A DNA stretch of 48,906 bases from Acidimicrobiales bacterium (GTDB taxonomy: Bacteria > Actinomycetota > Acidimicrobiia > Acidimicrobiales > Ilumatobacteraceae): the NCBI GenBank assembly GCA_025463415.1, contig JAOBWO010000466.1, positions 1 through 48,906 of the forward strand. The letters are read 5' to 3'. Shown here in pieces: positions 1 to 45,862 of the stretch. Numbering within the stretch: the first letter of the stretch is position 1; every line of letters starts with the position of its first letter. Position numbers and translations under genes: made by a program. The notes under the pieces are model-generated. The model was not told the DNA's origin. It did no database searches and saw only the letters and a program-made list of their open reading frames with translations.

Positions 1-99
1 GCCACGCCACGTCTGACCAAGACCGTCTCCCACGCCGACCGTGAGGCCGCGCTCAGCCGCTTCAGTGAGCGGACGTCCTTCGAAGCCGCGAACAACTGA
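1..99 (+). CDS. C-terminal end of a truncated upstream gene
   Basis: Frame 1 is open from the window edge to a TGA at 97-99, giving 32 residues that end RFSERTSFEAANN. The tail pattern (DREAALSRFSERTSF) resembles the last helix of crotonase-family enoyl-CoA hydratases, which often end in a D..E...F..KR..F pattern, but 32 residues are too few to assign a family. It lies 20 bp upstream of the DUF35 gene on the same strand, so it is probably the preceding gene of that operon. Confidence 0.5.
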   Translation, partial: ATPRLTKTVSHADREAALSRFSERTSFEAANN

Positions 100-119
100 T
101 CATCGACCCGAGGACCTCC

Positions 120-554
120 ATGTCGGACACCATCCCATATCCAGCGCCGCTTCCGGACGCCCTGACGCAGGGCTTCTGGGATGCGATCGCCGCACGACGG
201 CTCGCAATCCAGCGTTGCAGGGAGTGTGGCAAGTTCGTCCACACGCCCAAAGCGTCATGCCCGTTCTGCTTGTCGTTGGACCTGTTCTACGACGAGGTGT
301 CCGGGCAGGCCACGCTCTACACGTACGCGATCGCGGTGCATCAATACCACCCAGCGCTCGCCCATCGGGGCGAGTACGTGATCGCGTTGGTGGAACTGCC
401 CGAGCAGGACGGCCTGCGGTTCCTCAGCAACGTCGTCGATTGTCCCGAGGACGAGTTGGAGATCGGCATGCCACTGGAGCTCGTGTTCGAAGAAATCACG
501 CCCGGCATGCTGTTGCCGATGTTTCGGCGCCCGCTCGGTGGCGCTCATGCGTAG
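120..554 (+). CDS. DUF35 OB-fold/zinc-ribbon acyl-CoA-associated protein
   Basis: This 144-residue protein has an N-terminal helix (ending about residue 30), a rubredoxin-like zinc ribbon with C33-x2-C36 and C47-x2-C50, and a C-terminal OB-fold of about 90 residues. That is the full DUF35 layout. In steroid side-chain degradation the DUF35 domain of ChsH2 forms a complex with the thiolase-like aldolase Ltp2 (known). Here the DUF35 gene overlaps the start of a thiolase-like gene by about 8 bp, so the two products probably form the same kind of complex (inference). Unlike ChsH2 there is no fused MaoC domain. The ATG at 120 follows a GAGG sequence. A paralogue lies at 40777-41232, also next to a thiolase. 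Confidence 0.88.
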   Translation: MSDTIPYPAPLPDALTQGFWDAIAARRLAIQRCRECGKFVHTPKASCPFCLSLDLFYDEVSGQATLYTYAIAVHQYHPALAHRGEYVIALVELPEQDGLRFLSNVVDCPEDELEIGMPLELVFEEITPGMLLPMFRRPLGGAHA

Positions 555-1710
555 GGCCGGCCGCCGAGTCGCTGTTGTCGGCGTCGGGTTCTCACCAACC
601 GGACGCAACCTGGGCCTCTCGAACGAACAGATGACCGCGATGGCCGCCAAGGAGGCCATGGCCGACGCCGGGCTCACACCTGCCGACATCGACGGCGTCG
701 GCATGTACACGATGCCGAACGGCGCCTTGCGCTCGAACCAGTACACCTCGACCGTCCGAGTGGCAGCGATGCTCGGCATGTCGAACAACACCTGGTTCAT
801 GAGTGCGGTTGAGGGACCGGCCTACCTCGCGGGCGCGATCCCGGCGATCGACGCGGTCGCCTCGGGCAGCTGCGAGACGGTGCTCACGACCCGCACGCTC
901 GTCCATCCGGGCTCCTCGCAATCGACCAACAAGCAGATCCATGAGTACGAGGGCGACGCGCAGTTCCAAGCTCCGTTCGGCGCGCTCGCAGGCGCGCACT
1001 GGGCTTCCCTCGTCTGGCGCCGACACATGGCCAAGTACGGGTCGACGGCCGATCAGCTCGGCTACCAGCCGGTCTACCAGCGCGAGTTCGCCGCGCTGAA
1101 CCCGAAGGCGCTGATGCGGGAGCCCCTTTCGATGGAGGACTACCTCAACGCGCGCTACATCTCCAAGCCCCTCCGGCTGTACGACTGCGAGTACCCGATC
1201 AGCGGCAGCGGGGCAGTGATCTACACCACCGAGGAACGGGCACGAGACCTGGCGAAGAAGCCGGTGTTCATCGAGAGCCAGTCACTGGCCATCGGCAGCA
1301 ACCCCGACTTCTACGTCCACGATGACCTGTTGGGATCGTCGCAGAAGCCGGCCGCGAAGGCGATGTGGGACCGCACGGACCTGAAGCCGGAGGACATCGA
1401 TGTGGGCGGCATCTACGATGGCTTCACCGTGATCACGTTGATGTGGCTGGAATCCCTCGGCCTGTGCGGCGAGGGTGAGGCAGGCGCTTTCGTCCAGGCA
1501 GGACACACGCGGTTGGGCGGCAAGATCCCGATCAACTGCGATGGCGGCACGCTCAACATGGGTCGTCTGCATGCCGTGAACCACGTCATCGAAGTCACCC
1601 GCCAACTACGCGGTGAGAGCGGGGCACGTCAGACGCCGGGAGCAGAAGTCGGCGTGGTGACGGCCGCGATCGGTGCCTACGCAGGTTGCATGCTGTTGAC
1701 CGGAAGCTGA
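547..1710 (+). CDS. Thiolase-like (SCP2/Ltp-type) protein lacking nucleophilic cysteine
   Basis: A 387-residue thiolase-fold protein of the lipid-transfer/SCP2 type. It starts MRRAGRRVAVVGVGFS, and residues near 330-350 (GGTLNMGRLHAVNHV) correspond to the GGA..GHP loop of thiolases. The normal nucleophile region (CSSG) reads VEGPAYLAG, with no cysteine. The C-terminal catalytic Cys motif is replaced by GAYAGCMLLTG. By analogy with Ltp2, this points to an aldolase or other C-C lyase rather than a thiolytic enzyme (inference). ATG 547 is chosen over GTG 538 because it gives the same N-terminal length as the paralogue at 41225. The gene is translationally coupled to the DUF35 gene upstream and overlaps the Mo-hydroxylase start. 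Confidence 0.85.
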   Translation: MRRAGRRVAVVGVGFSPTGRNLGLSNEQMTAMAAKEAMADAGLTPADIDGVGMYTMPNGALRSNQYTSTVRVAAMLGMSNNTWFMSAVEGPAYLAGAIPAIDAVASGSCETVLTTRTLVHPGSSQSTNKQIHEYEGDAQFQAPFGALAGAHWASLVWRRHMAKYGSTADQLGYQPVYQREFAALNPKALMREPLSMEDYLNARYISKPLRLYDCEYPISGSGAVIYTTEERARDLAKKPVFIESQSLAIGSNPDFYVHDDLLGSSQKPAAKAMWDRTDLKPEDIDVGGIYDGFTVITLMWLESLGLCGEGEAGAFVQAGHTRLGGKIPINCDGGTLNMGRLHAVNHVIEVTRQLRGESGARQTPGAEVGVVTAAIGAYAGCMLLTGS

Positions 1711-14872: not shown

Positions 14873-14922
14873 GGTCGAACGCCTTTCTGGCAGGAGCCCC
14901 CACGGCAAGAACTGCGAACGAC

Positions 14923-14952
14923 AAATTACCACAACTATCTAGATGATACTGT
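14923..14952. promoter_or_regulatory. Divergent promoters around the best copy of the shared element (site C)
   Basis: AACTATCTAGATGAT at 14933-14947 is the reference form; its centre ATCTAGAT is a perfect palindrome. On the plus strand an extended -10 (TGA then TACTGT, 14944-14952) overlaps it. On the minus strand another extended -10 (TGG then TAATTT) ends at 14923. One bound protein here could control both Mo-hydroxylase transcripts. Together with its left flank (from ATTACCA) it matches the site at 34486 at 20 of 25 positions. Confidence 0.6.
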
Positions 14953-15047
14953 CGTCGAAGCATGGGCCGGGCCGCGACCGGACTCGTGAGGAGCGATACC
15001 GTCGCTCCACGAGAGAGGCACCAGCGGTTGTCGAGACAGGGGAAGAT

Positions 15048-17474
15048 GTGGCCGGTTTCATACGCGGCATGCGCGTGTTGCGCACGGAAGATCCTGAGTT
15101 GCTCACAGGGGCGGCGCGGTACGGCGACGACCTCGATCTTCCCGGCGCACTTCGTCTGGTGTTCGTGCGGTCTGAGCTGGCGCACGCACGATTGGTCGGG
15201 ATCGACACGGCGGAGGCGCTCGCCGCGCCGGGCGTCGTCGCGGTCTACACGGCAGCGGATCTCGGCCTTGCGCCCTACCAGGGAATGGCCAAGGTCCACA
15301 ACGACTTCGCACGGCCCCCGCTCGCCGTGGACAAGGTGCGGTTCGTGGGCGAACCCATCGCGGTGGTGATCGCAACGACCACGGCCGAAGCTCGTGATGC
15401 GGCCGACCTGGTGGTGGTGGACTACGAGCCGCTCCCGGCGGTCACCGACCCCGAGCTGGCGCTCGCGCTCGACGCACCAGCGCTGTTCGAGGCACACACC
15501 GACAACCTCGCAGTGGCCTTGACCGATCCTCCACTGCCGGGCATCTTTGCCGCGGCGGACCACGTGGTGCGCGGCCGTTACGTCAACCAGAAGATCGGCA
15601 TCGCTGCCATGGAGCCTCACTGCGTTGCCGCCGTTCCCGAGGCCGACGGGCGGCTGACGGTGTACGGGTCGACGCAGATGCCGCACCTGTTGCACAACCT
15701 CCTGGCGCGAGCCCTGCGCCTGCCCAAGGAGCAGTTGCACGTGATCGCGCCGCACGTGGGTGGGGGCTTCGGAGGCAAGGCGGGCATCTATGCCGAGCAG
15801 GTCGTCGTGGCGGGAGCTGCGCTTCTCCTCGGCCGGCCGATCATGTGGGCTGCGACGCGCAGTGAAGACATGCTGACCATGACCCACAGCCGGGCGCAGG
15901 TGCAGTACGTGGAGCTCGGGTGCAGATCTGACGGCACATTCACAGGGCTGCGCGTTCGACTCGTCGGCGATGGTGGTGCGTACCCCGGTCTCGGCGCGTA
16001 CCTGCCGGCCGGCACGAAGCGGATGTCGAACGGCACGTATGACATCCCCGCCATCCAGTTCGACGTGGCTGTTGCGGCCACCAACACCACACCCACAGGC
16101 GCGTATCGCGGGGCAGGACGGCCCGAAGCCACCGCCCTGCTCGAGCGACTCGTCGACCAGGCGGCGCTGGAGTTGAACATCGATCCGATCGAACTGCGGC
16201 GCAAGAACTTGATTCGGTCCGACGCGTTCCCATTCGCCACCCTCAGCGGACTGTCGTACGACTCGGGCGCGTACGCATCGACCCTCGACGCCGCCGCTGC
16301 CCACGCCGGTTATGCCGGTCTCCGTGCCGAACAGGCCGAACGTCGCGCGAACGGTGATCGGGTGGCGCTCGGCATCGGCGTGGCCGTGTACGTCGAGATC
16401 ACAGCAGGCGGCTCCACGAGCGAGTACGCCAGCGTGCGGGTCAACGAGGACGGGACGGCGACGGTGATGGCCGGTACGTCGGCGCATGGTCAAGGCCACC
16501 AGACTGCGTTCGCGATGATCGTGAGCGAGCAGACGGGGATACCCGTGGGCGCGATCCGCCTGGTGCAGAGCGACACGGATCTGATCCGTTCCGGAGGCGG
16601 AACCGGTGGATCACGGTCATTGCAGATCGGAGGTTCTGCTGTACATCGCGCGACCGAGGTCGTCGTCGACAAGGCCCGTTGCATTGCCGCCCAGTTGCTG
16701 GAGGCCGATGTGTCCGACGTGATCGTCGATGTGCGTGCCGGCACGATCGGTGTCGTCGGGGTTCCCTCGTCGGCGCTGACGTGGGCTGAGCTGGCGAGCG
16801 CTGCGGTGGGGCGGAGCATCGACCGTTTCGCCGATGATCTCGATCCTGATCTGGACGATCCGGATGCCATCGACGGCCTGGCCGCTCAGCTCGACTTCAC
16901 CCAGGCCGACGCGACGTTTCCCTTCGGCGCACACATCGCTGTCGTCGAGGTCGATCTCGACACGGGTCATGTCATCCTGCGGCGGCACGTCGCGGTGGAC
17001 GACTGCGGCACCGTGTTGAACCCGTTGTTGGTGGAGGGTCAACAGCACGGCGGTGTCGCAGCCGGGATCGGCCAGGCACTCTTCGAACACATCCAGTACG
17101 ACGACGCCGGCAACCCGTTGACCACCAACTTCATGGACTACGCCGTGCCCTCGGCGGCCGACCTGCCCGGTTTCGAGGTTTTCAGCACGGAGACTCCGAC
17201 ACCGTTGAATCCGTTGGGCGCGAAGGGCATCGGTGAAGCCAGCACGATCGGAAGCACGCCGGCCGTGCAGAACGCAGTCATCGATGCGCTCAGCCACCGC
17301 GGGGTCCGTCACATCGACCTGCCATGCACGAGCGAGGTCGTGTGGCGCGCCCTCCGTGCCGCCGAGGCCGGTCACCCGTTCGATCCGTGGAGGGAGCCGC
17401 CAGGGGTGTTCGCCAGACTTGCCAAAGGTCAAGAAGCTGATGCGGACAGCTTGCGCGCCGCAGAAGGAGTGTGA
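15048..17474 (+). CDS. CoxL-like (form II type) molybdopterin-binding large subunit
   Basis: About 808 residues from GTG 15048, which has GGGGAAG just upstream. The frame is open from ATG 14943, but that codon lies upstream of the predicted transcription start and adds unconserved sequence, so I reject it. Landmarks: VGGGFGGKAGIYAEQ near 245, AYRGAGRPEA near 350, GGGTGGSRSLQIG near 505 and KGIGEASTIGSTPA with the catalytic Glu near 730. AYRGAGR is the active-site loop of form II (CoxL-like) enzymes; form I CO dehydrogenases carry AYxCSFR. So this is not a CO dehydrogenase; the substrate is unknown. It has no subunit genes of its own and probably shares those at 13495-14872 (inference). Confidence 0.9.
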   Translation: MAGFIRGMRVLRTEDPELLTGAARYGDDLDLPGALRLVFVRSELAHARLVGIDTAEALAAPGVVAVYTAADLGLAPYQGMAKVHNDFARPPLAVDKVRFVGEPIAVVIATTTAEARDAADLVVVDYEPLPAVTDPELALALDAPALFEAHTDNLAVALTDPPLPGIFAAADHVVRGRYVNQKIGIAAMEPHCVAAVPEADGRLTVYGSTQMPHLLHNLLARALRLPKEQLHVIAPHVGGGFGGKAGIYAEQVVVAGAALLLGRPIMWAATRSEDMLTMTHSRAQVQYVELGCRSDGTFTGLRVRLVGDGGAYPGLGAYLPAGTKRMSNGTYDIPAIQFDVAVAATNTTPTGAYRGAGRPEATALLERLVDQAALELNIDPIELRRKNLIRSDAFPFATLSGLSYDSGAYASTLDAAAAHAGYAGLRAEQAERRANGDRVALGIGVAVYVEITAGGSTSEYASVRVNEDGTATVMAGTSAHGQGHQTAFAMIVSEQTGIPVGAIRLVQSDTDLIRSGGGTGGSRSLQIGGSAVHRATEVVVDKARCIAAQLLEADVSDVIVDVRAGTIGVVGVPSSALTWAELASAAVGRSIDRFADDLDPDLDDPDAIDGLAAQLDFTQADATFPFGAHIAVVEVDLDTGHVILRRHVAVDDCGTVLNPLLVEGQQHGGVAAGIGQALFEHIQYDDAGNPLTTNFMDYAVPSAADLPGFEVFSTETPTPLNPLGAKGIGEASTIGSTPAVQNAVIDALSHRGVRHIDLPCTSEVVWRALRAAEAGHPFDPWREPPGVFARLAKGQEADADSLRAAEGV

Positions 17475-29592: not shown

Positions 29593-31881
29593 TCACGCTG
29601 TCGACGCAGCCGGGCCGGTTCCCGTGATGAGCGGCCACACTCCATCGGCACCGGCTTGGGCGACCAGTGTCGCGACCCTGATCGACCACGCCCTTTCGGA
29701 ACCGTAGTCTCGGGACCACGAAGCCAGGCGACGCGTGTGGAGCTGGAGGTCGTATTCGCGGGTGACGCCGATCGCGCCGTGCACCTGGTGGGCAGTTGCT
29801 GCGACGACACGCGCGGCTCGCCGTGCCGCGACCGTGGCAGCGGCCACCGCGAGCCCGTGCGGATCGGTCGCGACGGATCGCATCGCGACCATCGCAGCGG
29901 TCCCAGCGAGCGCTGTCTCGCCGGCGGCCCGCGCCAATTGCTGCTGCACGGCCTGGAAGCGCCCGATGGGCTGTCCGAACTGGCGCCGTTCGGCGGTGTG
30001 GGCGACGCTGAGATCGAGCGCTGCTTGGCAGGCCCCCGAGATCAGCGCTGCTCGACAGACAGCGCCCCGGGCCGAGACCACAGATGCGGTCAGCCCCACC
30101 GGTGCTCTGCCGAACTCGCGCACCTCGACGGTGACGTGGTCGAACGTCAGCGTGTCACGTGGCTCGCCGGCGATGTTGCAACCCCGTTCGATGGTGCTGA
30201 GACCGATCGGAACCGAGATGACGATCATCTCGCCCTCGAGATCATCAGGCTGATCCTCATTGCCGCGGTCGACCGCACAGAGCACCACGAGCCGCTCCGC
30301 CACCCGGCCCCACGGAACGCGCTCGAATCGTCCCGTCAGCTGGAGGCTTCCGTTCACCAGACGAGTCGCTTGGACATGGTCGTTCTTGGCGCCCGGCGCG
30401 ATCGTGATCGGACCACCCGGCAGTTCGAGTCCAGCCTCTTGGAGCATCCATCCTGCGAGAACGGCTGTTTCGGCGATGGGTACCGGTGCGCCGGCGTAGC
30501 CAGCCATGCGGAGGATGGCGAAGACATCGTCCATCGACCCCCCCGAGCCACCGATGTCTGCATCCAAGCCCACCCACGGGACCCCCGCTGCCGCCAACGC
30601 CGACCACAGCGTCGGAATCCAGCCCTCCTCTTCCGACTGACGAACGATGGAAGGCGTGGCTTCGTTGGAGAGCAGGCGTTCCAGCGACTCCTGCAACAGC
30701 GGCTCGCCGATTGGGCTCCGGCCACCCTCGGCGCGCAGAGACTTGGCCACGAGCCCGCGGAGGACCTCGTTGGTGCCGCCGCGCAGGGTGAACGACGGCG
30801 CGGTCGTCACAGCCTCAGCGAGCAAGCGGATGACCGACGAGGGCGATGATGGATCGAGGTCGTCGTCCGTCAGCGTCGACAGCACCTCCACCGCCTCCTG
30901 CTCGAACGACGTGCCGAGGTCCTTGACGAGCGCGGCGTGGACGGCTGGCTCTTGGCCCTGATCGATGAGCCGGTTGACCGAAAGCGAGAGTTGACGGATC
31001 GCCCACATTCGCGCAACCAGCCCGCCGAGTGCGGCGCCGTCGGCTGCCCCCAAGGGATCAACATCGAGCTCGCGGAGGACCGCCTCGAGGACCGGCTGGA
31101 CAGTGAGGAAGCGGTCGGGTCCGGCGCGCTCGAAGGCAAGCTCGGACGTCACCTGAGTCCATCCCATGCCCACCCCGCCGAGGACGTTCTCGTCGCCGAC
31201 GAAGACATCGGTGAAGACCACCTCGTTGAGGTGGTGACTCCCGTCCATCAGGATGATCGGACGAACCACGACGCCCGGACTCCGCAGGTCGACGACGAGC
31301 ATGGTCAGTCCCTGATGTCGCTCGGCGGTCGGATCGGTGCGGCAGAGCACCGAGACGTAGTCGTTGACGTGCGCTCCGCTCGTCCAAACCTTGACGCCGT
31401 TCAGCAACCAACCACCGTCGGCGCGGGTTGCAGCCGTGCGCACCGCGGCGAGGTCGGAACCGGCGTCTGGCTCACTGAACCCGAGCGAGAACGAGATCTC
31501 TCCGGACACGATCCCCGGCAGGAAGCGCTGTTGGAGATCGGCCGTTCCGTAGCGCGCGAACGCTGTGCCGGTTTGTCGGTCCGCGACCCAGTGCGACATC
31601 ACTGGGGCGCCCGCGGCCAACAGCTCCTCGGCGACGACGTAGCGCTCGACGGCCGTACGGCCGCCGCCGCCGAGATGACGCGGTATCGACATGCCCAGCC
31701 AACCGCGTTCTCCCACCTTGCGGCTGAACTCGCGGTCCGCGCTGGCGGCGATGCCGAGGCCGGGGCGGTATGAGCCACGCGGCAGCACTTCCGCGAGGAA
31801 CGCGCGGACGTCACGACGGAGCGCATCTTCGGCCGCAGTCGGAGTGCTCGGTGGCAGCAGCATCGGCGCGGATCGTATCAT
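29593..31881 (-). CDS. Double-domain acyl-CoA dehydrogenase
   Basis: 762 residues, about twice the normal ACAD length, with two complete ACAD units in tandem. Unit 1 (1-380) has FSLGFSEPDAGSDLAAVRT, GGWLLNGVKVWTSGA and RGGTNEVLRGL. Unit 2 (385-762) has LLQESLERLLSNE, an RQFGQPIGRFQAVQQQLA stretch and VHGAIGVTREYDL. In unit 1 the position of the MCAD-type catalytic Glu (YEGT) reads RGGT; unit 2 is more degenerate. It resembles a fusion of the alpha and beta chains of the heteromeric FadE pairs used in steroid degradation (inference). The start could also be ATG 31863. Its promoter region faces the gene at 31908. Confidence 0.9.
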   Translation of the reverse strand: MIRSAPMLLPPSTPTAAEDALRRDVRAFLAEVLPRGSYRPGLGIAASADREFSRKVGERGWLGMSIPRHLGGGGRTAVERYVVAEELLAAGAPVMSHWVADRQTGTAFARYGTADLQQRFLPGIVSGEISFSLGFSEPDAGSDLAAVRTAATRADGGWLLNGVKVWTSGAHVNDYVSVLCRTDPTAERHQGLTMLVVDLRSPGVVVRPIILMDGSHHLNEVVFTDVFVGDENVLGGVGMGWTQVTSELAFERAGPDRFLTVQPVLEAVLRELDVDPLGAADGAALGGLVARMWAIRQLSLSVNRLIDQGQEPAVHAALVKDLGTSFEQEAVEVLSTLTDDDLDPSSPSSVIRLLAEAVTTAPSFTLRGGTNEVLRGLVAKSLRAEGGRSPIGEPLLQESLERLLSNEATPSIVRQSEEEGWIPTLWSALAAAGVPWVGLDADIGGSGGSMDDVFAILRMAGYAGAPVPIAETAVLAGWMLQEAGLELPGGPITIAPGAKNDHVQATRLVNGSLQLTGRFERVPWGRVAERLVVLCAVDRGNEDQPDDLEGEMIVISVPIGLSTIERGCNIAGEPRDTLTFDHVTVEVREFGRAPVGLTASVVSARGAVCRAALISGACQAALDLSVAHTAERRQFGQPIGRFQAVQQQLARAAGETALAGTAAMVAMRSVATDPHGLAVAAATVAARRAARVVAATAHQVHGAIGVTREYDLQLHTRRLASWSRDYGSERAWSIRVATLVAQAGADGVWPLITGTGPAASTA

Positions 31882-36254: not shown

Positions 36255-38072
36255 TCATGCACGGGACGGGGCTTGCGCCGCCTGTCGCCGTTGGTCGATG
36301 AGACGCAGGATGTCCTTGGGTCCGAGGGGTTGGTGCGTGATCGCCATCCCGAGAGCGTCGGCGATCGCGTTGATCAATGCTGCAGGCGAGGCAACAGTGC
36401 CGCCCTCTCCCGCGCCTTTGTGGCCGCCGGGAGTGTTCGAAGGCGTCTCGATGTGGCGGAACTCGATCACGGGCGCGTCCACGGCGGTCGGTAGGAGGTA
36501 GTCCATGAAGGTGGTCGCCACGGGGTTGCCTGATTCGTCGTATGCGGCATTCTCCAGCAGCACGCCGGACAGGCCCTGGAGCACCGCTCCGGTGATCTGG
36601 CCTTCGACGATCTGTGGGTTGATCACCACGCCACAATCCTCACTCACCACATAGCGGAGGATCTCGACCATCCCGCTTGCGGGGTCGATCTCGACGACGC
36701 ACGCATGGCTGGCGTTCGCCATGGTCGGGCCCTTGGCCGAGTAGCGCGACGTCCACTCGAGCCCGGCTTCCATACCGGGGGCAAGGTCGCCGGAGCGACG
36801 TGCGCGCTCCAAGCGATCTCAGCGAGGGTGAGGGACCGGGCAGGGACCCCCACGACGCCGACCCGGCCCTCCACCATGCTCAGGTCCTCGACGGCTGCCT
36901 CCAAGATGTGGCTGGCGATGTGCAGCACCTTCTCGAGAACCTTCTCGGCGGCGAGGCGGCAGGCGGCGCCGCCGAGGACAGCGCTGCGACTGCCGCCTGT
37001 TCCTCCGCCAGCCGGTGCTGTTCGAAGGTCTCGTCGAGGACGAACGTGGCTTCGGCGAACGCATCATCGACGCGTGGATCCGGCGGAGAGCTGAGCGTTG
37101 CGGCGATGTTCGTGCCGAGTTCCGCTTGGACGATGTGCTCGTCCCGGAGTGCGGCATCCAAGCCGATCACGGGCGGCAGCTCCGCGTAGGTGATGTCGAC
37201 GAGCTCAGCGGCATCCTCGGCGATGTATCGGCTGTCGGCGACGATCATGACGACTGGGTCGCCGACGTAACGAACCTGCGCGGAGGCCAGAAGTTCCCTG
37301 AACGGCGGAGCCGTTGACGTGGCGAAGATCTCGATCGTGCTTCGCATGTCTCGAGCGAGGTGGTTCAGATCCGCGGGGGTATATGCAGCCCGCACGCCGG
37401 GGAAGCGCTCGGCTGCGCTGACGTCGATGTCGACGATGTCCGCTCGTGGAAACGGGCTGCGAACGAATGCGACCTGCAGGGTGCCCGGCAGGCGAACATC
37501 GTCGACGTACTGGCCGTGACCGGTGAGCAGCCGGCGGTCTTCTGTGCGGCGCACCACATGACCGAGTGCAACGGCGGGTCGCCCCTGTTCCGCGTTCGTC
37601 ACGCCGTTCGAACGGACCGCGATGCGGACCGCGTCGACTATTCCCTGGTAACCGGTGCATCTGCACAGGTTCCCGGACAGGCCCTCGCGGATCTCCCGGT
37701 CATCGGGATCCGGGTTGCGCTCCAAGAGGGCGATGATCGACATGACCATGCCGGGGGTGCAGAAACCACACTGCAATCCATGAGCGCGCGACATGGCATC
37801 TTGCACCGGGTGCGAACCGCCATCTTCGTCGGCAACGCCCTCGATCGTGGTGATCACGCACGAATTCGCCTGCACCGCAAACACCAGGCATGCGCGGACG
37901 ACCACACCATCGAGCAGAACCGTGCATGCTCCACACACGTCATGCTCGCAGCCCAGGTGAGTCCCCGTCAGACCGCAGTCCTCGCGCAGCGCGTCTGCCA
38001 GTGTCTTGCGTGCCTCGAGCCGCAGAGAGTGTGCACGCCGTTGACCACCACTTGAACGTCGAGCTCAGACAT
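36255..38072 (-). pseudogene. Broken fused [2Fe-2S]/molybdopterin hydroxylase gene
   Basis: Remains of a single-chain gene with an N-terminal 2Fe-2S domain ([27 protein letters not shown]) fused to a Mo large subunit. Four lesions are visible. After ATG 38072 (MSELDVQVVVNG) the frame shifts near 38031-38040. At about 37008-37014 the text jumps from DETFEQHR to GGGTGGSRSAVLGG, omitting about 336 codons compared with the 11159 gene, including the GGGFGQK and YRGPW loops. The junction also changes frame. A G run at 36777-36781 (C run in the coding strand) holds another one-base shift before MEAGLEWTSRY. The end (KGAGEGGTVASPAAL) is normal. It cannot encode a working enzyme. Confidence 0.88.
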
Positions 38073-38280: not shown

Positions 38281-40752
38281 GTGTCGAGAATGCCGGGGGT
38301 GGCAGTGTCGAAGGGCGCGTTGAGTGGCATCACCGTGATCGATCTGTCCACAACGATCGCCAGCGCGTACACCAGCCTTCTCTTCGCGGACTTCGGAGCC
38401 GAGGTGATCCAGATCGAGCCTCCGGGTGGGAGTCTGCTCCGTGACCAGGCCGGCTGGCCGTTCTGGTCACGTGGGAAGCGCAGCGTCGTCCTCGACTTGA
38501 AGTGCGACAAGGATCAGCGCATTGCCAGAGATCTGCTGCTGAGCGCGGACGTCGTCTGCGAATCGTTCCGTCCGGGCGTCGCGGAGGAGTTGGGCCTCGG
38601 CTACGAATCTCTCAGCCGGTCGAACCCTGGACTGATCTGGACGTCTGTCACTGGCTTCGGACCAACGTCGCCACTTGCGCAGTTGCGCGGATACGAGGCG
38701 ATCGTGCTCGCCAAGCTCGGCGCGTTGAGCGGGCGTTCACCGACGGGTCGTTCCGGTCCGGTGATGCCGTCGGCATTGACTGCGACGTTCTCGGCTGCGT
38801 TGCTCGCAACTCACGGGACACTGATCGCGTTGTACGAGCGCGAGTCGAGCGGGCTGGGGCAGCGAGTGTCGTCCACGCTCCTCCAGGGCTTTCTTTCCCA
38901 CGATTCGTGGTCGTGGATGTTGAGGACTCTGTCGCAGCGATATCCCGAGGCGTTCACGGAGCACCAATCGTTCGACCCTCCGGGCGGCGTTCCGCCCAAC
39001 GTGATGATGTTCGGACTCATGGCCGGCCTGTCCAAGGACGGTCGATGGATGCAGTTCGCGCATGCTCAGCCGAAGCAGTTCGACGTGTTCCTCCGAGCTG
39101 CGGGTCTGGGATGGACCAGGTCCGACCCGAGGTGGATGGGGGCCGAGAACAGCCCCGACATATCGACTCGAGAGCGATTCTGGGAGATGATCCTCACAGC
39201 CGTTCGCGAGCTGACGTTCGAGGAGTGGCAGCAGAGGTTCGACGCAGATCCGACGATCTTCGCCGAGCTCTTCCGGCGAGGAGCCGAGATCCTCGATCAC
39301 CCGCAGATGATCCACAACGGCCACACGCTCGTCGTCGACGACCCTGAACTCGGCACGATCCGCGAGCCGGGAGTGTTGGTGACCATGTCTGGATCACCGG
39401 GTTGTGGAGCCGGTCCCATCCCTTCGCTCGATGAGCACGGACCGGAGGTCCGGGCTCGGGCGCACGTCGAGCCCCCAGCAGCCGCTCTTGCTGCAACCGA
39501 CTTCCCGACATCCGCTGCGCTCGCGAACGTGACTGTGATCGAGCTGGGCACGTTCTTCGCTGGTCCCTTCTCGACTGCACTGCTCGCGGATCTCGGGGCG
39601 CGAGTCATCAAGATCGAGCCCCTCGAGGGCGACCCGATGCGCAACATCATGGGCTTCCCGGAACTGTCCGCGGTGCGGGTCACGCAGGGCAAGGAGAGCA
39701 TTGCGGTCGACATACAAACGGTCGATGGACGAGCGATCGTCGAACGACTCGTCCGTGACGCGGACATGGTTCTGCAGACGTTTCGGGGTGGTGTGGCACG
39801 CAAGCTCGGGTTGGACCACGAGCGTCTGATGGAGATCAACCCGGACCTGATCTACCACTATGCGCAGGGCTACGGAATCGACGGTCCCTACGCCGGGCGC
39901 CCTGCATACGCTCCGGTGATCGCAGCGGGATCGGGATTCGTCTACCGCAACATCGGGAGCATGCCAGACGGTACCGACTTGACCCTGGATCAAGTCAAGC
40001 ACTGGGGGATCCGAGCCCATGGCATGGGCGTGGTGGTCGGCGTCAGCGTCGATCACTTCGCAGGTCTGGGGGTTGCGGTCGCGTTGTCTCTGGGCCTGCT
40101 CGCCAGGGCCCGCGGCTTCGGCGGTCAGCACACGATGACCTCGATGCTTCAAACGACCGCGCACATGATGTCCGACGACGTGATCGAGTACGCAGGGCGA
40201 CCGCCTGCGCCGGTCACGGACCCCGAGTTCATGGGGATGAACGCGCTGTATCGGCTCTACGCCACCGCAGACTCATGGGTGGTGCTGTGCGGGGTGTCGA
40301 ATGCCGAGTGGGTGTCACTCTGCACGGTGCTGGCCGCGACCGGCGTCCATCTCGTGGATCATCCGTCCTTCCGCACACGCGAGAGTCGGTTGGAACACGA
40401 CGCTGAGCTCGTCCGAGTGCTCGAGAGTTCCATGCTGAAGAAATCAGCCGCAGAGTGGGAGGAGCTCTTCACGGCAGCGGACGTCGCCTGCGTCGAAGTT
40501 GATCCGGGACCTCCTCATGCGGCGATGGACGAGGGCGGCCTGGCTCATCAGTTGGGCATGGTCGCGACAGTGGAGCACCCCATGTTCGAGAGGCACTATC
40601 GCACGACCGCGCTCGTCAATCTGTCGAGGTCCCTCGAGGTGCTCAAGCCCGGTTGCCTCAACGGCCAGCACACCGACGCCGTTCTTCGTGGCATCGGCTT
40701 TGCCGAGGCGGAGATCGCTCGACTCCACGCGTCCCACGTCGTTGGTCGCTGA
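38281..40752 (+). CDS. Tandem-fused CaiB/BaiF CoA-transferase, both catalytic Asp positions altered
   Basis: 823 residues made of two complete type III CoA-transferase domains. Domain 1 spans about 10-380 (SGITVIDLSTTIASAYTSLLFADFGAEVIQIE) and domain 2 about 410-823 (ANVTVIELGTFFAGPFSTALLADLGARVIKIE). In the position of the catalytic Asp domain 1 has Glu (RGYEAIVLAKLG) and domain 2 Ala (RPAYAPVIAAGSG) by my alignment. Fused pairs are known in actinobacteria, but the reaction of such proteins is not settled. GTG 38281 has GAGG 4 nt upstream; ATG 38290 is an alternative. It leads the six-gene operon ending with the DUF2889 pair. Confidence 0.88.
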   Translation: MSRMPGVAVSKGALSGITVIDLSTTIASAYTSLLFADFGAEVIQIEPPGGSLLRDQAGWPFWSRGKRSVVLDLKCDKDQRIARDLLLSADVVCESFRPGVAEELGLGYESLSRSNPGLIWTSVTGFGPTSPLAQLRGYEAIVLAKLGALSGRSPTGRSGPVMPSALTATFSAALLATHGTLIALYERESSGLGQRVSSTLLQGFLSHDSWSWMLRTLSQRYPEAFTEHQSFDPPGGVPPNVMMFGLMAGLSKDGRWMQFAHAQPKQFDVFLRAAGLGWTRSDPRWMGAENSPDISTRERFWEMILTAVRELTFEEWQQRFDADPTIFAELFRRGAEILDHPQMIHNGHTLVVDDPELGTIREPGVLVTMSGSPGCGAGPIPSLDEHGPEVRARAHVEPPAAALAATDFPTSAALANVTVIELGTFFAGPFSTALLADLGARVIKIEPLEGDPMRNIMGFPELSAVRVTQGKESIAVDIQTVDGRAIVERLVRDADMVLQTFRGGVARKLGLDHERLMEINPDLIYHYAQGYGIDGPYAGRPAYAPVIAAGSGFVYRNIGSMPDGTDLTLDQVKHWGIRAHGMGVVVGVSVDHFAGLGVAVALSLGLLARARGFGGQHTMTSMLQTTAHMMSDDVIEYAGRPPAPVTDPEFMGMNALYRLYATADSWVVLCGVSNAEWVSLCTVLAATGVHLVDHPSFRTRESRLEHDAELVRVLESSMLKKSAAEWEELFTAADVACVEVDPGPPHAAMDEGGLAHQLGMVATVEHPMFERHYRTTALVNLSRSLEVLKPGCLNGQHTDAVLRGIGFAEAEIARLHASHVVGR

Positions 40753-40776
40753 AACTTGCCCACAGAAAGGCAAACC

Positions 40777-41232
40777 ATGTCCAACACGATCGAGAGCGCG
40801 GCGAGACCGATTCCGGTCCCGAGCGACCTCACCCGTCCGTACTGGGATGCGGCGAAGGAGCACCGCCTCGACATACAGCGATGCCAGGAATGCAGCTACT
40901 TCATCCACGTGCCGTTGCTCCGATGCCCCCGCTGCGACTCCGCGGCACTCGCATACGAACCGGTGAGCGGCAACGGGACCATCTACAGCTACACGTCTGT
41001 GCATGACACCCGAGTGAAGTCGTTCCAGGCCATCGGGCCGTTCATCGTGGCGCATGTTGAACTCGTCGAGCAGCTCGGCCTGAAGATCACCTGCAACCTG
41101 TCTGGCACGGATCCTGCCGACGTGAAGATCGGCGCTCCGGTCGAAGTGATCTTCCTGCCGATCGGCGAGGGCATGGTTCTGCCCGATTTCAAGCTCGCGA
41201 CGCTCGCCGAGACAGGCGGGACGCATGACTGA
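40777..41232 (+). CDS. DUF35 OB-fold/zinc-ribbon protein
   Basis: 151 residues with zinc ribbon C36-x2-C39 and C50-x2-C53 and an OB-fold tail. It is a paralogue of the protein at 120 (shared FW/YW-D-A, IQRC.EC and the NGTIYSYT-type strand). ATG 40777 has AGAAAGG upstream; an in-frame TTG at 40756 is rejected. Its end overlaps the start of the thiolase-like gene by 8 bp, the same coupling as in the first pair, so a DUF35/thiolase complex is expected (inference). Confidence 0.9.
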   Translation: MSNTIESAARPIPVPSDLTRPYWDAAKEHRLDIQRCQECSYFIHVPLLRCPRCDSAALAYEPVSGNGTIYSYTSVHDTRVKSFQAIGPFIVAHVELVEQLGLKITCNLSGTDPADVKIGAPVEVIFLPIGEGMVLPDFKLATLAETGGTHD

Positions 41233-42484
41233 CAAGAAGGCGAAGGTCGCCGTTCTCGGGATCGGATACTCCAAGATCTCGAGGGGCAACTCAACGCAGA
41301 GCCTGGGAGCGGACGCTGTCGAGGCGTGCCGTGCCGCGATCTCAGATGCAGGCATCGGAGTCGAGGAGGTCGACGGGATCACCACCTACAAGTACCGTCC
41401 CGATTACTACGGTGGGTCCACCGCTGCACCGGACGAGTCGGTCGATGGTGTGCTGGTCGCTTCCCCGCAGTACATCTGGAAGCACCTCGGCTTCCCGAAC
41501 CTCCGCTGGGGAGAGTGGAACGACAAGTTCGTCGGCTCATCCCTGATCGAAGCTCACAACGCCATCGCAGGTGGTGCCTGCCGTTACGCATTGGTGTGGC
41601 GCGCGTGCGGCTTCGAGCAGGGCATCCGGTACGGCAACATCGATCCGGATCGAGTCACCGGGAACGACGAGTTCACGTTGCCGTACGGCGCGTACGGCGG
41701 ACCGCCCCTGTTGGCACTGCTCGCTCAGCGATACTTCGATGGCTACGGGGCAACGCGAGCGCACATGGCCACGTTCATCTCGATGACCCGGAAAAACGCT
41801 CTCCTCTCGGGTCGCGGCTATTGGGCGGAGAATCGTCCGGAGCAACTGTCTGTCGCGGACTACATGGCGGCCCGGATGATCTCCAGTCCGCTGTGCCTGT
41901 ACGACTGCGACATCCCGGTCCAGGGGTGCGCGGCCTACCTGCTCGGGCCCGCCGAAGCTGCCCAAGACGTACCGCACGGTTCGGCGTTCATCAAGGGTTT
42001 CGCGCAGGGCTACCTCGGGCCGGGTGGAGTGCAGACGTTTCTGCACTCCGGCGGCCGAGCTCGGCCGCCACTGGACGATGGGTACGCCTGGGAACCCAAC
42101 CTGGAGTTGGGCCGCAGGATCGCCAGCAATCTCTGGGCTGCGACGGGTTTGACCCCCAAGGACATCTCCACGGCAAACCTCTACGACGGATTCAGCATCA
42201 TCGCCTGGAGCTGGCTGGAGGGCCTCGGGTTCTGCGGCGAAGGTGAGGCGTTCGAGTTCGTCCAGGACGGCCGGGTCGAGATCGGCGGCGAGCTGCCGAT
42301 CAACACCAGCGGGGGCAACCTCGGCGAGGGACGGATGCACGGCGCGCCGCACGTCAGTGAGGCGATCTATCAGGCGATGGGTCGCGCCGGCGAGCGTCAG
42401 GTCAAAGACGCTCGATACACCCTCGCGGCGCCGGATCGACTCGCAGTCGGTCAGGCGATCGTCTTCAGCTCTGAACCAGATTGA
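41225..42484 (+). CDS. Thiolase-like (SCP2/Ltp-type) protein lacking nucleophilic cysteine
   Basis: 419 residues, paralogous to the protein at 547: KVAVLGIGYSK start, ISSPLCLYDCDIPVQG, STANLYDGFSIIAWSWLEGLGFCGEGEAFEF and GELPINTSGGNLGEGRMHG. The nucleophile region reads VGSSLIEAHNAIAGG, with no Cys; the C-terminal Cys motif is also absent. An aldolase-type C-C cleavage or formation is more likely than thiolysis (inference from Ltp2). The gene contains two adjacent perfect inverted repeats at 42026-42069, which encode GVQTFLHSGGRARP. It is followed after 70 bp by the amidohydrolase gene. Confidence 0.86.
   Translation: MTDKKAKVAVLGIGYSKISRGNSTQSLGADAVEACRAAISDAGIGVEEVDGITTYKYRPDYYGGSTAAPDESVDGVLVASPQYIWKHLGFPNLRWGEWNDKFVGSSLIEAHNAIAGGACRYALVWRACGFEQGIRYGNIDPDRVTGNDEFTLPYGAYGGPPLLALLAQRYFDGYGATRAHMATFISMTRKNALLSGRGYWAENRPEQLSVADYMAARMISSPLCLYDCDIPVQGCAAYLLGPAEAAQDVPHGSAFIKGFAQGYLGPGGVQTFLHSGGRARPPLDDGYAWEPNLELGRRIASNLWAATGLTPKDISTANLYDGFSIIAWSWLEGLGFCGEGEAFEFVQDGRVEIGGELPINTSGGNLGEGRMHGAPHVSEAIYQAMGRAGERQVKDARYTLAAPDRLAVGQAIVFSSEPD
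42026..42069. repeat. Two adjacent perfect inverted repeats inside the thiolase-like gene
   Basis: The first has a 9-bp stem GGAGTGCAG/CTGCACTCC with a 6-nt loop (42026-42049). Directly abutting is a 20-bp perfect palindrome with arms GGCGGCCGAG/CTCGGCCGCC (42050-42069). Both lie wholly in coding sequence. They could fold as two strong consecutive RNA hairpins or mark the scar of an insertion. Confidence 0.8.
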
Positions 42485-42554
42485 CCTCGTCGCCCGAACC
42501 TCGTTCGCTGAACGAGGTCGGCGTCGATCGGGGCACGACCAGAAGGAATCAACC

Positions 42555-43727
42555 ATGTCAAGCATCAGCATCCCAGTCATCGACGCTGACTCGCATCTCA
42601 CAGAGACTCCCGACCTCTTCACCTCACGGCTGCCGCAGAAGTGGCAAGCGGAAGCGCCGAAGGTCGTCCTGGACGATCAAGGGATCGAACGGTGGCGGAT
42701 CGCCGGCCGCTGGCTGAGCCCGGTCGGTGCAGCGTCACCAGCTGGTGAGGTGTTCGGGCCGAGCCATTGGGACGAGGTGGATCCAGCGACGTACGACCCG
42801 TCGTCGCGCGCCACCTGGATGGATGAGCACGGCATCCAGATGCAGGTTCTGTACCCGAACATCGTGGCGCTCGAGGGTCATGCGATCATGTCGCTGTCGG
42901 ATCCGGAGTTGAAGCTTGCGTGCGTCCGTGCCAGCAACGATCACATGACTGATTTCTGCAATGCCGTACCGAATCGGTTCGTGCCTCTCGCGTGCGTGCC
43001 CTTCTGGGACATCGAGGAATCGATCAAGGAGATGGAGCGTTGTGCGGGCCTCGGGCACAAGGGCGTCGTCTGGGCAGCGACCCTGACGAAGCACGGCCTG
43101 CCCGGAACAACGAGCAAGTACTGGGATCGCTTCTACGGTGCAGCGCAGGATCTCGGCATGTCGATCAACTTCCACGTTGGCGTCGGTTACACCGAAGAAG
43201 AGATCGGCATCGCGTCGCAGCGGATCGCCAAGGTCGATCCGCTCGATCAGGCCACCGATCAGGTTCGTCGTACCGCGATGAGCTTCATGGCGAATGGTCG
43301 CACGGTTGCAGGAATCATCATGAGCGGGCTCTGCGATCGGTTTCCCGATCTCGACTTCGTGTCGGTCGAGAGTGGCTTTGGATACTTCCCATACCTCATC
43401 GAAGCGCTCGATTGGCAGTGGAGGAACACCGGCGACTACCACAACATCTTCAAGGAGCGACTCCTGCCGAGCGAGTACTTCCGGCGGCAGGTCTACACGA
43501 TGTTCTGGTTCGAGGAGACCACGCTTCCCCTCCTCCAGGTGTTCCCGGACAACGTGATGTTCGAGACGGACTTCCCGCATCCGACGAGTCTGACGCCAGG
43601 CCCGGGCACCGTGTCACCGAATCCGGCGGACCTGGTGCAGCGTCACATCGGCACATATGGCGCAGAGCTGATGAAGAAGGTGCTCTGGGACAACGCCGCT
43701 CGTGTCTACCATGTCGATGCCGTCTGA
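42555..43727 (+). CDS. ACMSD-like amidohydrolase (amidohydrolase_2 family)
   Basis: 390 residues, a paralogue of the 9238 protein. The metal motif D-x-D-x-H is in VIDADSHLTE (residues 8-17). Shared segments are HWDEVDPATYDP, QVLYPNIVALEG, CVPFWDIEESIKEMERC, INFHVGVGY, VSVESGFGYFPYLIEALDW and FETDFPHP in the same order. ATG 42555 has AGAAGGAA upstream. It sits between the thiolase-like gene and the DUF2889 pair, and its end overlaps the first DUF2889 gene. The repeated association of this subfamily with DUF35/thiolase pairs suggests it acts on their product or substrate (inference). Confidence 0.92.
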   Translation: MSSISIPVIDADSHLTETPDLFTSRLPQKWQAEAPKVVLDDQGIERWRIAGRWLSPVGAASPAGEVFGPSHWDEVDPATYDPSSRATWMDEHGIQMQVLYPNIVALEGHAIMSLSDPELKLACVRASNDHMTDFCNAVPNRFVPLACVPFWDIEESIKEMERCAGLGHKGVVWAATLTKHGLPGTTSKYWDRFYGAAQDLGMSINFHVGVGYTEEEIGIASQRIAKVDPLDQATDQVRRTAMSFMANGRTVAGIIMSGLCDRFPDLDFVSVESGFGYFPYLIEALDWQWRNTGDYHNIFKERLLPSEYFRRQVYTMFWFEETTLPLLQVFPDNVMFETDFPHPTSLTPGPGTVSPNPADLVQRHIGTYGAELMKKVLWDNAARVYHVDAV

Positions 43728-44748
43728 CGATCCCCGTACAGACAGCGCCTCGGACATGTGCGACATCCGCGACCGTCGGCCCCCGAGCAATCCGACATCA
43801 GGTACACCGCCTCGCCGCCCGAATTCGGTCAGACGTACCAGCAATCTCGATGTGACGTGGCCAGACGGCCCGGAGGGGCAGTTGCGGATCGCCGGTCTGG
43901 CACGTGACCTGCACAGTACGAGTACCGGGCGAGCAGAGGTCCTGGACAGTGCGATGTTGAACGTCACGATGGCCGCCGACCGCACCGTGGTCAGCGTCGA
44001 TGCACAGCCGGGCGACCCGAACCTCGCTCGGTTGATCGGCGCGCGCGCCGGCAGCGGGTTTCGGCGGGCGGTCATCGCCGCGGCGCCGGCCGCTTCCAGC
44101 CGCTGGTCAGCGGGATACCTGCTTCTGGATGATCTCGCCGGCGTCAGCCTCATCGGCAGCTTCGCGTGGACCCGGCAGCCCGGCTTCGTCGACTCACCGA
44201 GGCGGTCGATCGACCCCGAGGGGATCTGTTCGGCGTACCGCGACGGTGGGCAGGCGCTCATCCGCCATCGCAACAACCTTCCGAGGGCTCAGAACGCCGC
44301 TCTCGCACCCTCGCTGCTCGACCCGACCGACATCGTTGCGTGGCACCACATCGACACGCCGAAGTCGGTGTGCATGCGTCGACGTCGCCGCATCGACGTG
44401 TGGTTCGACTCGATGATCCACATGGATGCAATTTTTCGGGACAACACCTGGGACGAAGATGGCAGAGAGATCGTGGTCCACGAATACGAGCTGACCGCAA
44501 CGGCGGACCTCGACGCGGCTCGTGTCACCGCAGTTCGAGCAACAGCACGCGTGCTGCCGTATCGGGAGTGCCCTTTGGCGGCCGGCGAGTTGCATCGACT
44601 GCTGGGGTCCTCGTTGAAGGGACTCCGCACCCATGTGATCGAGACACTTCGAGGCATCGAGAGCTGTACCCACCTGAACGACATGCTCCGGGCGATGGCC
44701 GACGTGCCGATGCTCATCGAGGGACTCGCTCGTTCCGGGGACATCTGA
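43702..44748 (+). CDS. DUF2889 protein (first of tandem pair)
   Basis: 348 residues (GTG 43702; ATG 43711 or 43717 are alternatives, all overlapping the amidohydrolase end). The DUF2889 pattern is clear: VRRTSNLDVTW, LRIAGLARDLH, GSGFRRAVI, YLLLDDLAG near 135, then HMDAIFRDNTWDEDGREIVVHEYELTA and VLPYRECPLAAGELHRLLG and the ending GIESCTHLNDMLRAMADVPML. The invariant-looking HEY, REC and CTHLND residues hint at a catalytic or metal site, but no function is known to me. It is in one operon with DUF35, thiolase-like and amidohydrolase genes. Confidence 0.85.
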   Translation: MSTMSMPSDDPRTDSASDMCDIRDRRPPSNPTSGTPPRRPNSVRRTSNLDVTWPDGPEGQLRIAGLARDLHSTSTGRAEVLDSAMLNVTMAADRTVVSVDAQPGDPNLARLIGARAGSGFRRAVIAAAPAASSRWSAGYLLLDDLAGVSLIGSFAWTRQPGFVDSPRRSIDPEGICSAYRDGGQALIRHRNNLPRAQNAALAPSLLDPTDIVAWHHIDTPKSVCMRRRRRIDVWFDSMIHMDAIFRDNTWDEDGREIVVHEYELTATADLDAARVTAVRATARVLPYRECPLAAGELHRLLGSSLKGLRTHVIETLRGIESCTHLNDMLRAMADVPMLIEGLARSGDI

Positions 44749-44749
44749 C

Positions 44750-45862
44750 GTGCGCGAGGAACCATGGCTGCTGCCATCGCCGGAGAGCAACGCGCCTGGG
44801 GTGACGGAGTCACCTCAGGCGTCGGAAGGCGCCGCAGGAATGTCTCGCCACCTCGATCCCCGCCACGGCCCTCACGAGCCGACGACGGGTAGTCCGACTC
44901 GGCGTCCGGGATCGGTCCGTCGCACGTCCACCGTTGACGGCCTACGCCCGAACGGCTTGGTGGCTGGTCTGACGCTCGTGGGCCTTGCTCGTGATGTCGT
45001 GACGGAGCTCGATGGCACGACTCGCATCGTTGACGAGGCGTCGATGCATGTGGTGCTCGTGTTCGACGGTGGCGCAGTGGTCACCGAGATCTCGACCACA
45101 CCGCCACTGCACGGCGTCGAGCAGCTCATCGGCAAGCGTGCGACCACCGGCTTCCGAGCCGAGATCGACAGCTCGACTGATGCCCGTCCGGGCGAGCTGC
45201 GGTACCTGTTGCTCGACGAGATCCCGGTCGCGACTTTGGTCGCAGGATATTCGGTCCTGCACGCAACGTCCCGGGGAGACGTCGATCTGGACGCCCTCGC
45301 GAACCTGAGGCCGGCCGGCCCCTTGCTGCACGGGCCCGGCATGTGCGCTGGGTATCGGGTCGGCGGAACCGTGATGACGAGGTTGGCGATCGGCAAGCGC
45401 GCGGTTGTGACGGGTCCGGATGCGACTTCGATCATTGATCCGGCAGATGTTCTCGGGTGGCACGACATGCCGCCTGATCTGCCGAGTGACTGCACCCGAC
45501 GCTGGCGTCGCCACGATCTTTGGCGAGATGAGTCGGGTGTGCTGCGCATAGATGCCTTCTTCCGTGACAGTCACATGGCGCCAGATGGCACCGAAACCAT
45601 CGTCCACGAGTACACCGTCGACGCGGCCATCGATCCAGCCACGATGACAGTCGTCGCCTGCACCGCCACACCGCGAGTTCTGCCCTTCGTCGAATGCCCG
45701 GAGGCTGCGGCGAGCGCTCGACGGATCGTCGGCAGAACCGTCATCGGCTTGCGCCCGAGTGTTCGAGCGGATCTCACGGGCGCGAGCACGTGCACCCATT
45801 TGAACGACATGCTGCGTGAGCTCGAAGACGCCGTGACGCTCGCTGCGCTTCTGCCGCTCTGA
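44750..45862 (+). CDS. DUF2889 protein (second of tandem pair)
   Basis: 370 residues, starting at GTG 44750, one base after the stop of the first DUF2889 gene. It shares the same blocks: VRRTSTVDGLRPNG, LVGLARDVV, TTGFRAEID, YLLLDEIP, RIDAFFRDSHMAPDGTETIVHEYTVDA, VLPFVECPEAAASARRIVG and GASTCTHLNDMLRELEDAV. The first 60 residues are a low-complexity, probably disordered extension. The two proteins are clearly paralogous but well diverged, which suits a heteromer or two separate steps. It is the last gene of the operon from 38281. Confidence 0.85.
   Translation: MREEPWLLPSPESNAPGVTESPQASEGAAGMSRHLDPRHGPHEPTTGSPTRRPGSVRRTSTVDGLRPNGLVAGLTLVGLARDVVTELDGTTRIVDEASMHVVLVFDGGAVVTEISTTPPLHGVEQLIGKRATTGFRAEIDSSTDARPGELRYLLLDEIPVATLVAGYSVLHATSRGDVDLDALANLRPAGPLLHGPGMCAGYRVGGTVMTRLAIGKRAVVTGPDATSIIDPADVLGWHDMPPDLPSDCTRRWRRHDLWRDESGVLRIDAFFRDSHMAPDGTETIVHEYTVDAAIDPATMTVVACTATPRVLPFVECPEAAASARRIVGRTVIGLRPSVRADLTGASTCTHLNDMLRELEDAVTLAALLPL

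Follow-up and report, generated by a model that had tools for sequence, protein, structure and literature searches.

Two adjacent genes of the DUF2889 family close an apparent coenzyme A (CoA)-catabolic operon in the DNA analyzed here, a 48,906-nucleotide contig from an Acidimicrobiales bacterium of the Ilumatobacteraceae (GenBank assembly GCA_025463415.1, contig JAOBWO010000466.1; hereafter the window, contig C81 of a 4.70 Mb genome that is 76% complete). Our analysis of their products, P1 and P2, leads us to favor, on balance, an interpretation of DUF2889 as a family of IscU/SufU fold with a remodeled metal site, in which P1 and P2 would be two-domain members bearing a two-histidine/two-cysteine site in the C-terminal domain and an N-terminal copy that completes a pseudo-dimer. 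In the remodeled site an invariant histidine would stand at the aspartate ligand of SufU, two further cysteines would be kept and the sulfur-accepting cysteine lost, with a new invariant histidine two residues past the last cysteine and an invariant aspartate nearby. The unstudied family can now be given a probable fold, four candidate ligands, a division into subfamilies and two genome contexts, the suf operon and CoA catabolism, and thereby gains its first testable chemistry; if the interpretation is true, a fold of iron-sulfur (Fe-S) cluster assembly has been re-used in catabolism. The IscU/SufU-like fold, the internal duplication and the suf-operon link of the single-domain form go beyond the initial annotation of the window, which had been made from the sequence alone.

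That two diverged DUF2889 genes end the operon, as the initial annotation had it, is borne out by the presence of both open reading frames (ORFs), which are 37% identical over 326 aa and score far above the curated 25-bit cut-off of Pfam family PF11136; neither protein is covered by an NCBIfam family. The features of the two genes are as follows.

43702..44748, + strand: DUF2889 protein P1, two-domain form, clade A (PF11136, 94.6 bits; tree)
44314..44745, + strand: C-terminal IscU-like domain of P1, modeled alone (predicted model, VIA-align)
44479-44481, 44569-44571, 44665-44667 and 44671-44673, + strand: P1 site codons for His, Cys, Cys and His, respectively
44750..45862, + strand: DUF2889 protein P2, two-domain form, outside clade A (PF11136, 101.9 bits; tree)
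44912..45271, + strand: N-terminal domain of P2, residues 55-174, a duplicate without the site residues (hhalign; strands and helices in the model)
45494..45844, + strand: C-terminal DUF2889 domain of P2, residues 249-365 (domain comparison, model, conservation)
45605-45607, 45695-45697, 45791-45793 and 45797-45799, + strand: P2 site codons for His286, Cys316, Cys348 and His350, respectively

Conservation was counted, in P2 numbering, over 81 distinct domain stretches detected with the key columns masked and without motif selection; at least one of these (L124, cut by the end of its locus) is a second copy of a gene present elsewhere. This count replaces an earlier one (63/63) from a short set partly picked by its CTH/CSH/CVH motif. 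His286, Pro312, Cys316 and Gly328 are each present in 81/81 stretches, and Cys348, His350 and Asp273 are invariant wherever covered (80/80 each; the single row that lacks Cys348 and His350 is truncated at the end of its locus, and one row is gapped at Asp273). Other columns vary among the 81, with Glu in 32 and His in 33 at position 287, Tyr in 32 and Met in 43 at 288, Glu in 47 at 315, Asn in 31 at 352 and Asp in 32 at 353. The family-wide core is thus one His, two Cys, another His and one Asp, and the full letters of the HEY, EC and CTHLND blocks, found in 22-23 of the 23 two-domain proteins, are not family-wide. The initial annotation had located these blocks in both P1 and P2, where they are indeed present, and had taken them for active-site or metal-site residues; the suggestion is supported for H286, C316, C348 and H350 as likely site residues but not for the E and Y of HEY, the E of EC or the N and D of CTHLND.

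Comparison with SufU delimits what has changed. The P-x-C-G-D motif occurs in 30/30 SufU sequences; DUF2889 has no C-x-D motif, and cysteine is absent from the first hairpin (14 residues before to 8 after the invariant His) in 80 of the 81 domains. Judging from the aligned sequences, the sulfur-acceptor cysteine of SufU is lost in DUF2889, and the aspartate ligand has apparently been replaced by histidine. We consider it probable that the conserved core binds a metal, which could be Zn2+ or a [2Fe-2S] cluster.

The family has single-domain members, with frames often of 170-250 aa and sometimes longer, and two-domain members (~320-390 aa), in which the Pfam match fills the C-terminal third only. 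P1 and P2 each consist of two related domains, of which the N-terminal copy is degenerate. A profile-profile comparison (hhalign) of the N and C halves of 23 proteins yielded E 1.9e-8 and a probability of 95.4, the best of 100 column shuffles reaching E 0.051; an earlier comparison of 9 proteins had given E 0.00035 versus 0.033 for the best of 30 shuffles. A hidden Markov model (HMM) of the C-domain detects 10 of the 23 N halves under E 0.01, and the full-length model of P2 (9 sequences; predicted local distance difference test, pLDDT, 75.7; predicted template-modeling score 0.78) runs twice through four strands followed by helices, at residues 55-174 and 249-365. The N copy retains R57, R58, T59, R81, D82, L126 and G128 in 23/23 proteins and lacks the HEY, EC and CTHL blocks, the site being kept in the C-terminal domain only.

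A likeness to IscU/SufE/NifU was guessed from the sequence pattern and written down before any structure search. The AlphaFold2 model of the P1 C-domain (pLDDT 78.7) was then compared by VIA-align with the 1000 best chains of Foldseek. The top rows were IscU (1wfz, Z 8.2, 102 residues, 3.6 Å) and human ISCU2 (6w1d_D, Z 8.1, 95 residues, 2.7 Å), and IscU/ISCU/SufU chains filled 23 of the first 26 rows (Z 8.2-6.0; 8rmc_D counted among them by chain length), the other three being lipoate-ligase-type proteins (8crj, 4tvw, 2e5a). Against a profile of 30 SufU sequences, the profile of two-domain C-domains scored 26.0 (at most 20.6 in 200 column shuffles and 9.0 when reversed), with Cys316 aligned to the second SufU cysteine. 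A wider profile of 63 sequences places the invariant His on the Asp of the SufU C-G-D in a weak match, and Cys348, with which the last helix begins, would be the third ligand as judged from topology and the ends of the aligned range only. Since Foldseek returned no significant match and Z scores of 7 to 8 are commonplace, the argument rests on how one-sided the list is, on the guess made beforehand and on the register of the sequences; on these grounds an IscU/SufU fold of the modeled C-domain is moderately supported. A search of solved structures with the C-domain profile matched only a cysteine desulfurase (E 0.76), which we take as chance.

A line of evidence independent of the fold comes from gene neighborhoods, in which single-domain DUF2889 is linked to sufS-sufU. 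Among 121 genomes from the family of the window, DUF2889 was found in 102, SufU in 110 and both in 93. In 22 of these 93 genomes, from five genera, sufU is followed on its own strand by DUF2889 at a distance of no more than 2 kb, as established by comparing tables by eye; the denominator includes genomes with only two-domain or weak DUF2889 (e.g. G003, G005, G520), and the genomes, many in short contigs, are not mutually independent. The DUF2889 match of G487, which is counted among the 22, is weak and divided between two frames. The gaps measure 120-212 bp or 1.08-1.27 kb, and 8 further genomes carry sufU and DUF2889 on one contig, 4-6 kb apart and in various orientations. Pfam resolves one such row (G241, L075) as ABC ATPase, class-V aminotransferase (sufS-type), NifU_N, inosine-uridine nucleoside hydrolase and DUF2889, and another (G018, L064) as aminotransferase, NifU_N and nucleoside hydrolase; a class-V aminotransferase also lies beside sufU in G009 and G022. 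The single-domain form may serve the SUF pathway. The intervening nucleoside hydrolase gene, seen between sufU and DUF2889 in some genomes (10340-11347 in L075, 8693-9709 in L064), is an observation apart; gaps of 1.08-1.27 kb elsewhere would fit the same gene. In the genus of the window, DUF2889 stands beside acyl-CoA dehydrogenases in the four loci examined (L071, L072, L073, L083).

The two-domain form is linked to CoA-catabolic genes. With the window proteins as queries, we compared 28 two-domain loci (the window apart), 21 single-domain loci and 20 control regions of 20 kb, the controls being set at round, not random, coordinates in seven genomes that carry the two-domain form. Most flanks spanned 7-10 kb, with less at the ends of contigs; closely similar loci (L005, L008) are counted, as are several from a single genome (L086-L088), L009 having been dropped as a copy of L008. 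In the order two-domain, single-domain and control, genes in reach numbered 11/28, 0/21 and 0/20 for DUF35; 12/28, 0/21 and 0/20 for SCP2-thiolase; 12/28, 1/21 and 1/20 for Amidohydro_2; 12/28, 4/21 and 2/20 for CaiB; 19/28, 6/21 and 4/20 for acyl-CoA dehydrogenase; 13/28, 2/21 and 5/20 for AMP ligase; and 18/28, 4/21 and 5/20 for short-chain dehydrogenase. The initial annotation had staked its proposal on such linkage to DUF35, thiolase and amidohydrolase genes elsewhere, and the first three counts show it for the two-domain form. Because the partners differ by locus, amidohydrolase being in reach at 12 of the 28 and DUF35 at 11, no single substrate follows, and the step on a ring-opened or decarboxylated acyl-CoA that the initial annotation put forward is conjectural.

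Pfam was also run on 138 ORFs called in the surroundings of 19 two-domain loci, with a maximum of 360 aa taken from each; of the 99 families matched, the 25 commonest are headed by CoA_transf_3 (10), AMP-binding (8), acyl-CoA dehydrogenase (8) and enoyl-CoA hydratase (6). DUF2889 keeps mostly the same company on annotated plasmids of Mycobacterium, Rhodococcus, Streptomyces, Sphingomonas, Sphingopyxis and Sphingobium, its neighbors there being acyl-CoA dehydrogenases, ligases, thiolase/OB-fold pairs, thioesterases or CoA-transferases (eight of ten plasmid hits read; H4 and H9 dropped as apparent copies of H3 and H8). Separately, Actinomadura physcomitrii carries a CaiB-DUF2889-amidohydrolase cluster on three closely similar scaffolds (L005, L008, L009). 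An XDH-type gene was in reach at 0/28 two-domain, 0/21 single-domain and 0/20 control loci, and a dedicated role in maturing the molybdenum hydroxylases of the window is not favored given its absence from the two-domain neighborhoods.

Within the genome of the window there are four DUF2889 matches: P1, P2, a two-domain copy on C278 and a single-domain copy on C345 that adjoins acyl-CoA dehydrogenase genes. A quick tree of 31 two-domain rows, evaluated by the Shimodaira-Hasegawa-like approximate likelihood ratio test (SH-aLRT) with no bootstrap and excluding both halves of the gene split at L089 as well as two weak single-domain hits, places P1 in a seven-row clade (clade A, SH-aLRT 100) with the C278 copy, G018, G010 and three sphingomonad plasmids. 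P2 falls outside that clade on a long end branch, in no well-supported small group, its nearest rows being actinobacterial. By this topology P1 and P2 are old paralogues, and their origin by recent tandem duplication is unsupported. In G010 one protein inside the clade and one outside it lie ~2.1 kb apart beside DUF35/thiolase genes; the pairing thus recurs at least once, which is ground for suspecting a P1-P2 heteromer and not evidence of one. At L089, a second two-domain DUF2889 extends over two overlapping frames (14903-16005), through a frameshift or an assembly error.

The two DUF2889 genes are the last of an apparent + strand operon, preceded by the following genes.

38281..40752, + strand: CoA-transferase family III (CaiB), 823 aa with two matched stretches (PF02515, 480 bits), first gene of the apparent operon
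40756..41232, + strand: DUF35/ChsH2-type OB-fold protein (PF01796 and PF12172)
41225..42484, + strand: SCP2-thiolase-like protein, motif position YDGF, probable DUF35 partner (PF22691)
42552..43727 (frame open from 42243), + strand: Amidohydro_2 protein (PF04909, residues 113-490 of the long frame)

CaiB-kind ORFs of ~830 aa also lie near DUF2889 in six other loci (L005, L006, L008, L010, L084, L086). The SCP2-thiolase-like protein had been described as a cysteine-less thiolase, a loose label for a protein with 7 Cys, though its motif position does read YDGF (residue 320). The conserved part of the amidohydrolase begins near 42552 (MSSISIPVIDADSHLTE), although its frame is open from 42243, and an overlap with the thiolase gene is therefore unlikely on the sequence. 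The reported overlap of the amidohydrolase with P1 stands, P1 reaching over its stop (43727) by 11-26 bp depending on the P1 start. P1 and P2 had been placed one base apart, which is correct for the listed GTG start of P2 at 44750 and the end of the P1 stop at 44748. In the close homologues L006 and L007, however, the open frame extends just a few codons upstream of the counterpart of P2 Met31, so that the true start of P2 may be the ATG at 44840, in which case the gap is ~91 bp. A promoter scan found one sigma-70-like site ahead of the CaiB gene, not above chance expectation. After P2, the opposite strand carries a GntR/FCD regulator and an MFS transporter.

Other genes of the window were noted in passing. 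At 36258-38064 (- strand) a molybdenum-hydroxylase-type gene lies in pieces, with Fer2_2 and hammerhead parts in one frame, a MoCoBD_2 end in another and no MoCoBD_1 match in the scanned frames; it is likely a decayed or deleted copy. A second DUF35 and SCP2-thiolase-like pair, again with YDGF, occupies 69-1707 (+ strand) directly before another molybdenum-hydroxylase large subunit, and a 762-aa acyl-CoA dehydrogenase frame at 29593-31881 (- strand), whose C-terminal end forms a second, IpdE2-like part, is apparently a fused double acyl-CoA dehydrogenase.

We propose that the metal center may have been taken into service in the two-domain form, making it a metalloenzyme for one of the operon's acyl-CoA steps, which in the window would lie around the CoA-transferase and the DUF35-aldolase pair. 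The second copy would complete a platform, resembling that of the major histocompatibility complex (MHC) in the full-length model, whose groove could hold acyl-CoA, and P1 and P2 could each serve a different intermediate, or consecutive ones, or work together as a heteromer. That two-domain DUF2889 acts as an enzyme is a tentative suggestion, to which we lean because this form follows catabolic clusters, also on plasmids, in both Actinomycetota and Pseudomonadota, and because its usual partners (CaiB, acyl-CoA dehydrogenase, thiolase and ligase) are not known to depend on Fe-S clusters. We hold very unlikely a more specific version, in which the two His and two Cys bind a [2Fe-2S] center with Rieske-like ligands in an IscU fold, a cluster scaffold having turned redox or catalytic enzyme and its two-domain version having been dispersed among operons for acyl-CoA catabolism in Actinomycetota and sphingomonads.

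Several results weigh against an IscU/SufU-derived metal site. Foldseek alone gave no significant match to the C-domain (best E 0.1) and no IscU in 50 rows, and models that lack a clear match commonly reach a top Z of 7 to 8. The wider 63-sequence profile reached E 0.044 against SufU, short of the best of 60 shuffles (0.0082), the single-domain profile alone reached E 0.12, and Pfam NifU_N did not match nine C-domains even at E 10. The best VIA-align match of the full-length P2 model is an MHC class I platform (Z 8.3) and its best Foldseek rows are BPI-like proteins, with M. tuberculosis SufU at rank 47 (E 0.7); we do not accept either as homology, since a pair of four-stranded domains, each with its helices on one side, makes such a shape. 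An HMM of single-domain proteins misses all N-terminal copies (best E 0.065), the genus of the window is absent from the 22 sufU-linked genomes, and four of the 28 two-domain loci (L012, L094-L096) have no CaiB, amidohydrolase, DUF35, thiolase or acyl-CoA dehydrogenase in reach. The absence of the acceptor cysteine counts on the same side, as does the supposition that H286, C316, C348 and H350 would meet in space.

The missing acceptor cysteine also bears on the notion that both forms of DUF2889 are SufU-like accessories of Fe-S or sulfur trafficking, which would mature an Fe-S or molybdenum enzyme of the operon and not act on acyl-CoA. The IscU/SufU-like model of the P1 C-domain, the single-domain form in suf operons, the molybdenum-hydroxylase genes of the window (one set with a 2Fe-2S subunit) and ferredoxin or Rieske genes at some two-domain loci speak for this; yet it appears unlikely in view of the missing sulfur acceptor, the lack of XDH-type genes around the 28 two-domain loci and the usual partners, which are not known to need Fe-S clusters. 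Were the invariant Cys and His instead a structural zinc knot, the two-domain protein might be an adaptor joining the DUF35-aldolase to other enzymes, as its linkage to DUF35/thiolase genes would allow and as the scaffolding of thiolase complexes by DUF35 proteins themselves (PMC12329534, in the text available) would parallel. With DUF35 in reach at only 11 of 28 two-domain and none of 21 single-domain loci, we judge this distinctly unlikely. Least probable is a metal-free Cys-His enzyme, such as a thioesterase or acyltransferase with C316 or C348 as nucleophile: two invariant Cys, two invariant His and adjoining genes for CoA-thioester enzymes accord with it, but two Cys and two His at positions resembling a known metal site better suit ligands, and we know of no enzyme of that type in the IscU/SufU fold. 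A remodeled metal site in an IscU/SufU fold remains the interpretation we prefer.

The literature on DUF2889 is almost nil. PMC4520260 contains a superfamily assignment in SCOP for DUF2889, so that the same fold may already have been predicted, and PMC7253759 lists a DUF2889 gene as under positive selection; in the available text of these two papers no function is given. PF11136 matches P1 and P2 over nearly its whole length, and the match covers the C-terminal domain only, the second, degenerate copy in both proteins being unreported by Pfam.

Among known systems, the lipoate-protein ligase C-terminal domain, which belongs to the SufE/NifU superfamily of SCOP, has a structural likeness to the P1 C-domain, through the lipoate-ligase-type chains among the top rows. 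The upstream DUF35 and SCP2-thiolase-like pair has the same architecture as the steroid side-chain aldolases Ltp2-ChsH2 and Sal-Shy. It reads YDGF where the thiolase-fold motif is YDHF in Ltp2 and YDCY in Sal (PMC12329534), thus lacking the YDHF catalytic motif, and DUF2889 is not part of those systems as described in the available text of that paper. Another parallel is with SufU/IscU/NifU_N (PF01592), which DUF2889 resembles in the modeled fold of its C-domain, in the proximity of sufU to the single-domain form and possibly in two of its cysteines, Cys316 by its alignment with the second SufU cysteine and Cys348 by its place where the last helix begins. M. tuberculosis SufU binds zinc through ligands that include Cys40, Asp42 and Cys67, the first of which is also the sulfur acceptor (PMC10216065, in the text available). 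DUF2889 differs from SufU in having no NifU_N match in the nine C-domains scanned and no acceptor cysteine, in the additional His350 and, in the register of a weak match, in His286 for the Asp ligand; P1 and P2 differ further in their two domains and their setting in a CoA-catabolic operon.

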